Of a stretch of 64,000 bases of DNA, positions 54,151 to 58,546 are shown piece by piece. The translations under genes were made by a program, and so were the position numbers. The first letter of the stretch is position 1; each line of letters starts with the position of its first letter. The DNA is from Capsaspora owczarzaki ATCC 30864 (taxonomy: Eukaryota; Opisthokonta; Filasterea). Under the pieces are notes generated by a model. The model did no database searches and was not told where the DNA came from. It worked only from the letters and a program-made list of their open reading frames with translations. The stretch is taken from positions 1,837,181 through 1,901,180 of the forward strand of contig NW_011887292.1 in assembly GCF_000151315.2 (NCBI RefSeq). Direction: 5' to 3'.

Positions 54151-54597
54151 ATGTCGATCACCGCTTCGGACTCGCGTGCTCTTCTCCCTCCAATGGCTGA
54201 CGGATCGCATCTGAACGAGGATGGCAGCGAAAAGGAGCGCCGCGTAGCTGCCAACAACCCGGGGTACAATGCCGCCTTCAAGTCGTACGTCGGCAACCAC
54301 ATTGTGACGTCCAAGTACACCATCCTCACGTTCATTCCCGTCAACCTGTTTGAGCAATTCCGCCGTGTTGCCAACGCCTATTTCCTCTTCCTGCTCATTC
54401 TCCAGCTGATCCCGGCCATTTCGGCGCTGAGCTGGGTGACCACGGCCATCCCACTGATCTTTGTGCTTGCTGTGACTGCCGTCAAGGATGGCTTTGACGA
54501 TTTCAAGCGCCACAAGAGCGATCACGGCGTCAACACCCGTCCTTCGCGTGTGCTTCGTAACAGTACGTCGAGGGTTTGAGCGTTGAATCCTGATCAG

Positions 54598-54652
<55 letters not shown>

Positions 54653-57600
54653 CATTCCCCCCCCCCGCTCACTCACTCCCTCGTCTTGCTCAACCCAACA
54701 GACGCGTGGATTGATGTCCAATGGCACGAGGTGGTGGTTGGCGACATTATCGCCAACCCAACAGACGCGTGGATTGATGTCCAATGGCACGAGGTGGTGG
54801 TTGGCGACATTATCGCCATGAACGACGGTGAATTTGTTGCGGCAGATCTCTTCCTGTTGTCGACCAGCGAGCCGCATGGCATTTGCTACGTGGAGACGGC
54901 CGAGCTCGACGGCGAGACCAACCTCAAAATCCGCCAGGCTATTCCGGACACCAACCATCTCGACGAAACGCACCACCTGAACGAGTTTGACGGCGTTGTG
55001 TTTTGCGAACCCCCGAACAACAATTTGCATCGCTTTGATGGCGCCCTGACCTACAAGAACAAGCAGTTCCCGATCGACAACGACAAGATTTTGCTTCGCG
55101 GCTGCGTTGTTCGCAACACCAAGTGGATTCATGGCCTCGTGCTCTTTGCTGGCCACGACACCAAGTTGATGCAAAACAGCGGTGGTGTAAGTTGCCGGTG
55201 TTTTGTTTGTTTGTTTGTTTATTTGCTTGTTTCCTTCCCCCCCCCCTCTTGTCACATTCGCGACTCACACACTCACACACTTCACATCCCCCACACCCCT
55301 CTCTCTTTTGCAGGCTCGCTTCAAGCGCACCCACATGGACAAGCTGATGAACAACATGGTCATTACCATCTTCTGCTTCCTGGCAACGCTGTGTTTGATT
55401 GCTGCGATTGGTAGCGGTATCTGGACGACGCTGTATGGCGGCGATTTCCGCATCTATCTGCCGTGGGAAACTTTTACGAGCACCCCTGGTGTTATTGGTG
55501 TTTTGAACTTTTTCTCGTTCATCATTCTGCTCAACACACTCGTCCCCATTTCCCTGTACGTGTCCGTCGAAATCATCCGTCTCATCCAGTCGTGGCTGAT
55601 TGACTGGGATCGCGGCATGTACTTCCCGGAGAACAACACCCCGGCTGCGGCTCGCTCGACCACGCTCACCGAAGAGCTCGGTCAGATCCAGTACATTTTC
55701 TCGGACAAGACGGGCACCCTCACTCGCAACGTCATGAGCTTCCTCAAGTGCACGATTGACGGCGTGTCTTATGGCAAGGCCCTGACTGCCGCCAACGCTG
55801 GTGCTGCCGCCCGCTCTGACGGCAACGCCTCTGCTGCCGGTGCCCTGACCAGGGTGGACTTTAGCTGGAACGCGCTCGCCGACCAGGACTTTGAGTTTTT
55901 CGACGAAAGCCTCGTTAAGGAATGCCGCGGTGGCAACCCTCGCGCTGCCGACTTTTTCCGCCTGCTCGCTATTTGCCACACTGTTGTTCCCGAAGAAACC
56001 GAGGCTGGCGGCCTGGAGTACAAGGCCCAATCCCCCGACGAAGCTGCCCTTGTGTCGGCTGCCAAGAACTTTGGCTTTGTCTTTATGCGCCGCACCCCGA
56101 CTCAGGTGGTCATCTCCATCCACGGCCAGGAAGAAACGTACGATCTCCTCACCATCATCGAGTTCAACTCGGACCGCAAGCGCATGTCCATCGTGGTGCG
56201 CATGCCCAACGGCAAGCTTCGTCTGTACTGCAAGGGCGCCGACTCTGTCATTTACGCTCGACTTGGCCCCAACTCCTGCGAGGATCTCAAGACAACGACA
56301 TCGCAGCACCTCGAAGTTTTTGCCAACGACGGTCTGCGCACGCTTTGCCTGGCTTACCGCGATCTCGGCGAGGAAGAGTTTACGGCTTGGCAAAAGGAAC
56401 ACCACGAGGCCAGCATCGCTCTGACGGATCGCGAGGCCAGGATTGGCGCGGTTGCCGAGCGCATTGAAACCGATTTGACGCTCATTGGTGCTACTGCCAT
56501 TGAAGACAAGCTGCAAGAGGGTGTCCCGGAAGCCATTGCCAACCTTGCTCGCGCGGACATCAAGATTTGGGTCTTGACGGGCGACAAGCAGGAGACGGCC
56601 ATCAACATTGGTTTCTCGTGCCAGCTGCTCCGCACCGACATGGAGCTTTGCATTGTGAACGGCAAGGAGGAAAAAGACACGCTTGCCAGCCTCGAGCAGG
56701 CCAAGCGTGTTGCCGAAGTCAACCCCGACGTCGCGAAGGCGCTTGTCATTGACGGCCACTCGCTGCATCACGCGCTCGAGCCGCACAACAAGCTCAAGTT
56801 CCTCGAGGTGGCTTCCAAGAGTCGCGCGGTGATTTGCTGCCGCGTCTCGCCGCTGCAAAAGGCGCTCGTCGTGACCCTGGTCAAGGAGCACAAGAAGGCC
56901 GTGACGTTGGCTATTGGTGACGGTGCCAACGACGTGTCCATGATCCAGGCTGCTCACATTGGTGTTGGTATTTCGGGCATGGAGGGTCGCCAGGCCGTCC
57001 TTGCCGCCGATTTCTCGTTCGCGCAGTTCCGCTTCCTCGAGCGCCTGCTCCTGGTTCACGGTCGCTGGTCGTACATGCGCATGTGCAAGTTCATGGCGTA
57101 CTTTTTCTACAAGAACTTTGCCTTTACTCTCTGCCAGTTCTGGTATGCCTTCTTTTCGGCCTTCTCTGCCACGGTAAGTTTTTGTGTTGTGTGTTTTTGT
57201 AAATTGTGGTTGTTGTTGTTGTTGTTGCTCTGCCATGGGCGTTCGGGTGTGTATGTGTGTGCGGATGCTGCTGAGCCATGCTCTCAACCTGCTTGTTTCT
57301 GGTCTCGATGTACTTGTTCCCCTTCCCCTTGCCCTCCCCAGACCTTGTACGATGCCTGGATGATTACTTTCTACAATGTCATTTTCACCTCGCTTCCAGT
57401 GCTGATGGTTCTGATCTCGATGTACTTGTTCCCCTTCCCCTTGCCCTCCCCAGACCTTGTACGATGCCTGGATGATTACTTTCTACAATGTCATTTTCAC
57501 CTCGCTTCCAGTGCTGATGGTCGGCATTTTCGATCAGGTACGTGTTCACTTTTTTTTGTGTGTTTGATGTTTTTTCTTTCGTCATCCACCCCTTCCAATC

Positions 57601-58546
57601 CCCCCCCCCACCGCCTCGCTAATCTCCCGCCTCGCTAATTTGTGCCCTTTTGCCTCCTCGTGTTGATTTGCAGGATGTGGACGATAAGACTTCGTTGAAA
57701 TTCCCGCAACTGTACATCCCCGGTCAGCGCAATCTTTTGTTCAACAAGACCAAGTTTTGGCTGTCGTTGGCCAAGGGCATCTGGACTTCGGTCGTGCTGT
57801 TCTTCTTTGCTCTTGGCATCTTTTAGTGAGATTTCCGCTTGTGCATATGCTCCGCATGTCCTTCATTCCCCCCCCCTGTCCCAGTTTCTGACTTGATTTT
57901 TTTTTTGTTTGGCTTGCGTTTTTTGCTTTGCGTGTTTTTGCTTTGTCGCAGCGATCAACTCTCACCCAGCGGCCGCACCAACAACGACCTCGTCTTCCTC
58001 GGCACTTGCGTCGCCGCGGTGCTCGTGCTGGTGGTCAACCTTGAAATTGGATTGAACACGTATTCGTGGACGATTGTGAACGCCGTTTTCGTGATTGCAT
58101 CCATCTTGTCCATCTGGGCGTTCTACTTTATTCTGTATTCCGTCCCTGCGTTTGGCGAGACTGTCATTGCCTACTACTGGGCCGTGTACCGAATCATTGC
58201 CTCTGGTGCATTCTGGTTCTACCTGGGCCTGGGTGTCGCGACCATCTTCCTGCCACTGCTTTCCATGCGCTACTACCAAATCACGTACAGACCAACGCCT
58301 GTTGACATTGTGCGCGAGATTCGGAAACTGGATTCGACACGCGACCGTCAAAACCGCGACAGCAAATCCTCCGACTCGCTCGAGCTCGGAGTTCGGGAGC
58401 CCACCAAGCCGTCGCCCCAGCCAGCACACCACGGCTTTGCCTTCTCCCAGGAGCCGGGTGGTGCCGACCTGATCACCCCAGGTCCTCGTTGCTCAATTGG
58501 CGAGGGCACTGGCATGGGCATCAAGAAGCCTGCTGCTCGCGAGTGA
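54151..58546 (+). CDS. P4-type ATPase, phospholipid flippase
   Basis: Moves phospholipids from the outer to the cytosolic leaflet, usually with a CDC50 partner. Six exons: 54151..54562, 54765..55186 (or from 54702), 55314..57173, 57454..57537 (or from 57342), 57674..57825, 57952..58546, giving about 1,174 residues. Motifs in order: TM1-2 after [20 protein letters not shown]; the A domain with [10 protein letters not shown]; the phosphorylation site [10 protein letters not shown] (about residue 409); [11 protein letters not shown]; the ATP-binding [13 protein letters not shown]; the hinge [21 protein letters not shown]5-10; and a Ser/Pro-rich cytosolic tail. DGET in place of the TGES of ion pumps marks a flippase. 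Two tandem duplications each copy a 3' splice site (separate entries); only the downstream copies give the normal protein at the second site. It is the richest gene here in splice ambiguity. Confidence 0.95.
54601..54650. repeat. (TG)25 microsatellite in P4-ATPase intron 1
   Basis: Fifty bases of uninterrupted TG lie between the exon 1 donor and the duplicated acceptor. Together with the following C run this fills most of the intron. Confidence 0.95.
54691..54816. repeat. 63-bp tandem duplication spanning a 3' splice site and the start of exon 2
   Basis: Two exact 63-bp units, 54691-54753 and 54754-54816. Each starts with the acceptor CAACCCAACAG followed by ACGCGTGGATTGATGTCC. Acceptors fall after 54701 and 54764. 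Use of the second gives the standard flippase sequence ([19 protein letters not shown]); use of the first adds 21 residues in frame. Confidence 0.95.
57297..57520. repeat. 112-bp tandem duplication spanning a 3' splice site and the start of exon 4
   Basis: Two units, 57297-57408 and 57409-57520, differing at one position that I can see (G at 57302, A at 57414). Each carries the polypyrimidine tract and acceptor CCCTCCCCAG before ACCTTGTACGATGCC. Acceptors fall after 57341 and 57453. Because 112 is not a multiple of three, only the second acceptor keeps the flippase frame ([20 protein letters not shown], then GIFDQ). Confidence 0.95.

Follow-up and report, generated by a model that had tools for sequence, protein, structure and literature searches.

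In the potato RdRp gene PGSC0003DMG402000361, a tandem duplication that spans a splice acceptor was proven by 53 genomic and 106 RNA reads. As described there, the two copies differ at ten nucleotides, a new intron arose through a cryptic GTAAG donor, and the first intron holds another tandem duplication, of 83 bp (PMC4974935). The same source outlines the Rogers/Hellsten model, in which an intron is gained through duplication of an exon segment that bears AGGT, with ATP2A1 as the gene concerned (PMC4974935). The false duplications described by Kelley and Salzberg (2010) consist of near-identical adjacent copies over exon sequence, and the cases in that account involve separate contigs (PMC2864568). 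Literature searches on duplicated acceptors returned nothing to the point.

We analyzed a stretch of 64,000 nucleotides from Capsaspora owczarzaki (C1:1837181-1901180; the window, by which we mean this whole stretch), in which a P4-ATPase gene carries a 63-bp tandem duplication over the acceptor of its first intron. The two GAPDH qPCR primers given for this species in PMC9170242 have exact matches on C1 that face each other within 532 bp, which makes the species very likely; against it, four oligo stretches of the Capsaspora coYki gene, three searched exactly and one with up to 3 mismatches, had no match in the sequence searched. As in the potato RdRp gene, the 3′ end of an intron, its acceptor and the start of the following exon are doubled, and the gene holds a second tandem duplication. 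The potato case as described differs in its donor and in the divergence of its copies, since copy 1 of the Capsaspora 63-bp pair offers no frame-keeping donor and the two Capsaspora copies, as they stand in the assembly, do not differ at any position. The likeness to the Rogers/Hellsten account of ATP2A1 is that a tandem duplication in a P-type ATPase gene doubles a splice signal, but the doubled signal is an exonic AGGT in that account and the acceptor of an existing intron here. The Capsaspora copies also share near identity, adjacency and exon content with the false duplications described in PMC2864568. Unlike those cases, they are far shorter and lie in one unbroken stretch, as the window contains no N and neither a gap nor a contig end separates the copies.

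The P4-ATPase gene and its doubled intron 1 acceptor

The gene has six exons and extends from the ATG to the stop codon over positions 54151..58546 of the window, on the forward strand like all its features described below; it was delineated with an exon model, catalytic motifs, Pfam and PDB. The motifs DGET, DKTGT, TGDK and DGAND are all found in its product. PF16209 (99.3 bits), PF16212 (103.5 and 62.3 bits; cut-off 28.3) and PF13246 scored above their cut-offs, and PF00122, searched on an exon piece, fell slightly short (27.8 bits; cut-off 28.1). The PDB matches comprised 20 distinct flippase sequences. Given P4-specific N- and C-terminal domains together with the P-type catalytic motifs, the predicted protein qualifies as a P4-ATPase (phospholipid flippase), and the gene appears intact apart from its tandem duplications. 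By sequence it resembles the flippases 8ox4, 6k7g and yeast Drs2 (6psx) in its A domain and catalytic motifs; we take 8ox4 to be ATP8B1 and 6k7g to be ATP8A1-type. Introns 2, 4 and 5 measure 127, 136 and 126 nt, and the donors of the gene read GTACGT, GTAAGT and GTGAGA. Within intron 4 (57612-57639), CGCCTCGCTAAT occurs twice at a distance of 16 bp (57612 and 57628), which doubles the branch-site-like word CTAAT. A profile search with PF16209 gave seven matches, probably representing six genes, and the closest paralogue by the A-domain exon was C8:597693 (46%).

Copy 1 of the 63-bp unit (54691..54753) consists of 11 nt from the end of intron 1, the proximal acceptor, whose AG ends at 54701, and 52 nt of exon 2. 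Copy 2 (54754..54816) follows directly, with the distal acceptor (AG ending at 54764). All 63 bases are equal, and the match extends for two further bases (CA, 54817-54818) to a total of 65. Ten order-1 Markov sequences, each 64,000 bases long, had no self-match longer than 11-13 bases at offsets of 20-500, which rules out chance self-similarity as the source of the 65 matched bases. A copy brought in from elsewhere in the genome was also rejected, as a DNA search of 27.46 Mb in 29 contigs matched the unit only at these two places. An exact scan of the window for runs of at least 25 bases found just two tandem repeats of varied sequence, both of them in the flippase gene. An earlier reading of the DNA letters (the sequence-only reading) had proposed an in-frame tandem duplication over the intron 1 acceptor, and this was borne out. 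It had also placed the start of the unit at the 3′ end of the intron; the unit does span the acceptor, but its first 11 nt are still intron and the larger part of it is exon.

Intron 1 (54563..54764) measures 139 nt to the proximal acceptor and 202 nt to the distal one. Splicing to the distal acceptors of both introns 1 and 3 yields the standard protein of 1174 amino acids; the proximal acceptor of intron 1 combined with the distal acceptor of intron 3 yields 1195 amino acids, with 21 residues added in frame. These are the two products that had been foreseen, although the A-domain entry segment, which had been expected to appear twice in the longer one, is not doubled exactly. Because a split codon gives Asn, the first repeat differs after splicing and only the second reads D-AWIDV. 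Use of the proximal acceptor would insert the 21 residues at the entry to the A domain. No such 21-residue repeat was found at this place in two flippase alignments, which start inside copy 2. The 63-bp repeat was likewise absent from the paralogue stretches compared, and paralogues cannot tell the number of units expected at this locus. The A-domain exon was modelled from single sequences in two versions, with the repeat and lacking it; mean pLDDT values of 33.8 and 33.2 were too low to judge whether the insert is tolerated.

Acceptor choice at introns 1 and 3

The sequence-only reading described the two intron 1 acceptors as identical. This is true of the sequence beside the AG, which is AACAG/ACGCG at both, but not of the sequence upstream: 31 of the 40 nt before the proximal AG are pyrimidines compared with 18 of 40 before the distal AG, the remaining acceptors of the gene having 29 to 32 per 40 nt. 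The distal acceptor therefore does not have a pyrimidine-rich stretch of its own. Beyond the TG tract of intron 1, the first AG encountered is that at 54701, and a single further AG (54730) precedes the distal one. In the scanning mode of splicing, the AG chosen is the first suitable one downstream of the branch site. Provided that the duplication is real, we would expect the proximal acceptor, as the first AG beyond the pyrimidine-rich stretch, to serve the majority of transcripts, with the distal acceptor as a minor site that gives the standard protein. A balanced pair is not expected, because the distal acceptor is preceded by exon sequence. No word of the form CTRAY or TTRAY occurs within 80 nt upstream of the proximal acceptor in intron 1 or intron 3, or of the acceptor in intron 2. 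The distal acceptor of intron 1 has TTGAT 50 nt upstream, and that of intron 3 has CTGAT at distances of 48 and 39 nt. These branch-like words speak somewhat against a proximal preference at intron 1 but do not decide the choice of acceptor.

The second duplication concerns intron 3 (57174..57453), which measures 168 nt to its proximal acceptor (57341) and 280 nt to its distal acceptor (57453). The proximal site lies in copy 1 of a 112-bp unit (57297..57408) and the distal site in copy 2 (57409..57520). The copies agree at 111 of 112 bases, with position 6 of the unit as the sole mismatch (A at 57414, G at 57302), and each acceptor has its own pyrimidine-rich stretch (32 of 40 nt before the AG at both). 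Splicing to the proximal acceptor shifts the frame and leads to an early stop, with a product of 967 or 988 amino acids that would lack the C-terminal membrane part. Only two of the four possible mRNAs encode a full-length protein, both by way of the distal intron 3 acceptor, and the 112-bp duplication is harmful unless that acceptor is used. The earlier suggestion of two splice-site duplications in one gene is therefore correct in that the second one also spans an acceptor, but the 112-bp repeat is out of frame and the two do not form a matched pair. In the reading favored below, the 112-bp repeat is the same kind of event as the 63-bp repeat.

Origin of the duplications

Upstream of the 63-bp repeat, intron 1 contains a TG tract (54599..54651) and, between the tract and the repeat, a run of 10 C (54657..54666). 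The sequence-only reading had placed a (TG)25 tract before the repeat and had pointed to its slippage. The tract is there, but it has 53 nt or 26.5 units and the C run intervenes. Slippage as the cause was rejected, because the tract lies outside the copied unit and ends 39 bases before it; slippage would change the number of TG units, whereas the copied sequence begins only at 54691, 40 bases farther on. Very long dinucleotide tracts are also present elsewhere in the 264-kb block around the window on C1, with TG x50, CA x48 and GA x75 in addition to the TG x26 of intron 1.

Tandem Repeats Finder was applied to 314,000 bases, of which 14,987 were N and 299,013 were not. The scan gave 20 rows with a unit of at least 25 bp and varied sequence, and we kept those with a match of at least 96% and about two copies. 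The 14 rows left out were multi-copy arrays or had a match below 96%, including a two-copy 72-bp row at 92%. This leaves six near-identical two-copy duplications, whose units range from 32 to 112 bp, within the 299,013 non-N bases. Besides the two in the flippase gene, these are an exact 32-bp pair (C1:1798248-1798315), another near-identical 32-bp pair (C1:1819730), an exact 51-bp pair downstream of a long A run (C1:1946959-1947064) and a near-identical 50-bp pair (L027:6584). The match continues beyond the unit in the four pairs for which this overhang was measured, by 2 bases (63 bp), 1 base (112 bp), 4 bases (51 bp) and 4 bases (32 bp, C1:1798248). For random breakpoints and even base composition, an overhang of at least 4 has a probability of 0.016 in each case, and the overhang of 2 at the 63-bp pair is ordinary (0.156). 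In the C1:1798248 pair, an in-frame stop in the first copy separates one open frame of 568 codons from another of 551, both in the same frame. The scan region also includes a diverged tandem duplication (L027:5099-5380), with 85 identical bases at an offset of 160 and, elsewhere, substitutions and a small length difference.

The sequence-only reading had found two splice-site duplications in one gene hard to call chance, a judgment that was not supported as it stood. When six pairs were placed at random in a simulation, some two of them fell within 2.7 kb of each other with a probability of about 0.24 (0.10 for four pairs and 0.32 for seven), and duplications of this class recur in the genome. 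Among all placements in the gene, about 0.08 span an acceptor for a 63-bp unit and about 0.14 for a 112-bp unit, and these values rise to about 0.33 and 0.46 if one counts only placements that splicing could compensate for. Two acceptor hits are unusual in a null model without selection and cease to be remarkable when the view is limited to events that can survive; in both cases the count was made post hoc. Overall, the earlier interpretation is partly supported.

We favor, with roughly even confidence, the view that the 63-bp repeat is a genuine, recent and short tandem duplication of a recurring class that serves no special purpose. A replication or end-joining error at a microhomology of 2 bp (CA) may have given rise to it, in which case the end of intron 1 of the P4-ATPase gene would have been copied together with the beginning of exon 2. 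A close rival, which we regard as quite possible though somewhat short of probable, is a false duplication in which overlapping sequence from two read sets or alleles was set end to end and not merged. The gene would then have one acceptor here and make only the standard protein. Identical copies are just what such an error would show, and they count against the genuine reading; differences that would rule out assembly error amount to none in 63 bases and one in 112. That lone mismatch lies close to the start of copy 2 (its sixth base), where a sequence end of poor quality could have left it. The TG tract and the C run, which are hard to sequence, lie directly upstream of the 63-bp pair in what is presumably a Sanger draft assembly. 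Simple tracts occur within 100 bp of three of the six near-identical duplications compared with 923 of 5000 random stretches, an excess that is weak, based on small numbers and a hint at most, and that would fit either a region hard to sequence or a fragile site. Two of the six (the 112-bp pair and the 32-bp pair at C1:1798248) break a gene at face value. Genes broken at young duplications are as compatible with assembly error, or with an allele that is heterozygous or damaged, as with neutral events. Capsaspora cells are described as possibly diploid (PMC9170242), so that alleles could have been placed side by side and a damaged allele could be tolerated. Several observations argue for real duplications. 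The copies are not separated by N, and duplications inside one contig are, according to the account in PMC2864568, rarely misassembled single-copy sequence. The 4-base overhangs at two of the other duplications exceed what random joins would give, and the diverged L027 duplication indicates that the genome holds older ones as well, though two alleles in tandem could look alike.

Three further explanations take the duplication as real. The sequence-only reading leaned toward two retained acceptors that provide two working flippase forms, with the A-domain entry doubled or not, perhaps tuned by the TG tract. The preserved frame and the same AG context at both acceptors would fit, as would the regulated alternative splicing, mostly intron retention, described for Capsaspora (PMC3870316). 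The unequal pyrimidine stretches do not fit, identical copies give no sign of a lasting state, the partner at intron 3 is out of frame and the class recurs elsewhere in the genome; nothing in the analysis shows a regulated switch, and we consider this explanation very unlikely. If both duplications were real and formed a two-step control, the choice at intron 1 would double the A-domain entry and the choice at intron 3 would set a full-length (distal) or cut-short (proximal) protein. In its favor, the G-to-A difference supplies the distal intron 3 acceptor with the CTGAT 39 nt upstream, a word absent from the proximal copy, as if selection had maintained use of the distal site. Because intron 2 and intron 1 (to its proximal acceptor) are also without such a word, it is evidently not needed for splicing here. 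We regard a two-step control as highly improbable. As to a step toward intron gain, part of copy 1 would become a new intron that ends at the acceptor of copy 2. The layout agrees with that described for potato RdRp, with an intron 3′ end and an exon start in the unit (PMC4974935), and in the 112-bp pair splicing from the GT dinucleotides at 57378, 57399 or 57408 to the distal acceptor would preserve the frame, the one at 57408 adding 22 residues. However, all five GT dinucleotides in the exonic portion of 63-bp copy 1 would break the frame, and the three of four that preserve it in 112-bp copy 1 are unlike the gene's own donors. The sole donor-like GT in either duplication (57347, GTACGA) breaks the frame, and an intron starting at 57408 would have only 46 nt. 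We give intron gain here next to no probability; the 63-bp repeat is likely a member of the same kind of duplication, with no intron gain on present evidence.

Implications for the flippase gene

If the repeat is false, a gene model is corrupted by a local error of the assembly, and the same gene contains at least one other such error. If the favored reading of a genuine young duplication is correct, the locus would present a fresh acceptor-doubling duplication, its copies still undiverged, in a unicellular relative of animals. RNA-seq data from three life stages of Capsaspora have been published (PMC3870316). A real duplication would let one ask which AG wins when two acceptors follow unequal pyrimidine stretches, and whether a P4-ATPase tolerates a doubled entry to its A domain.
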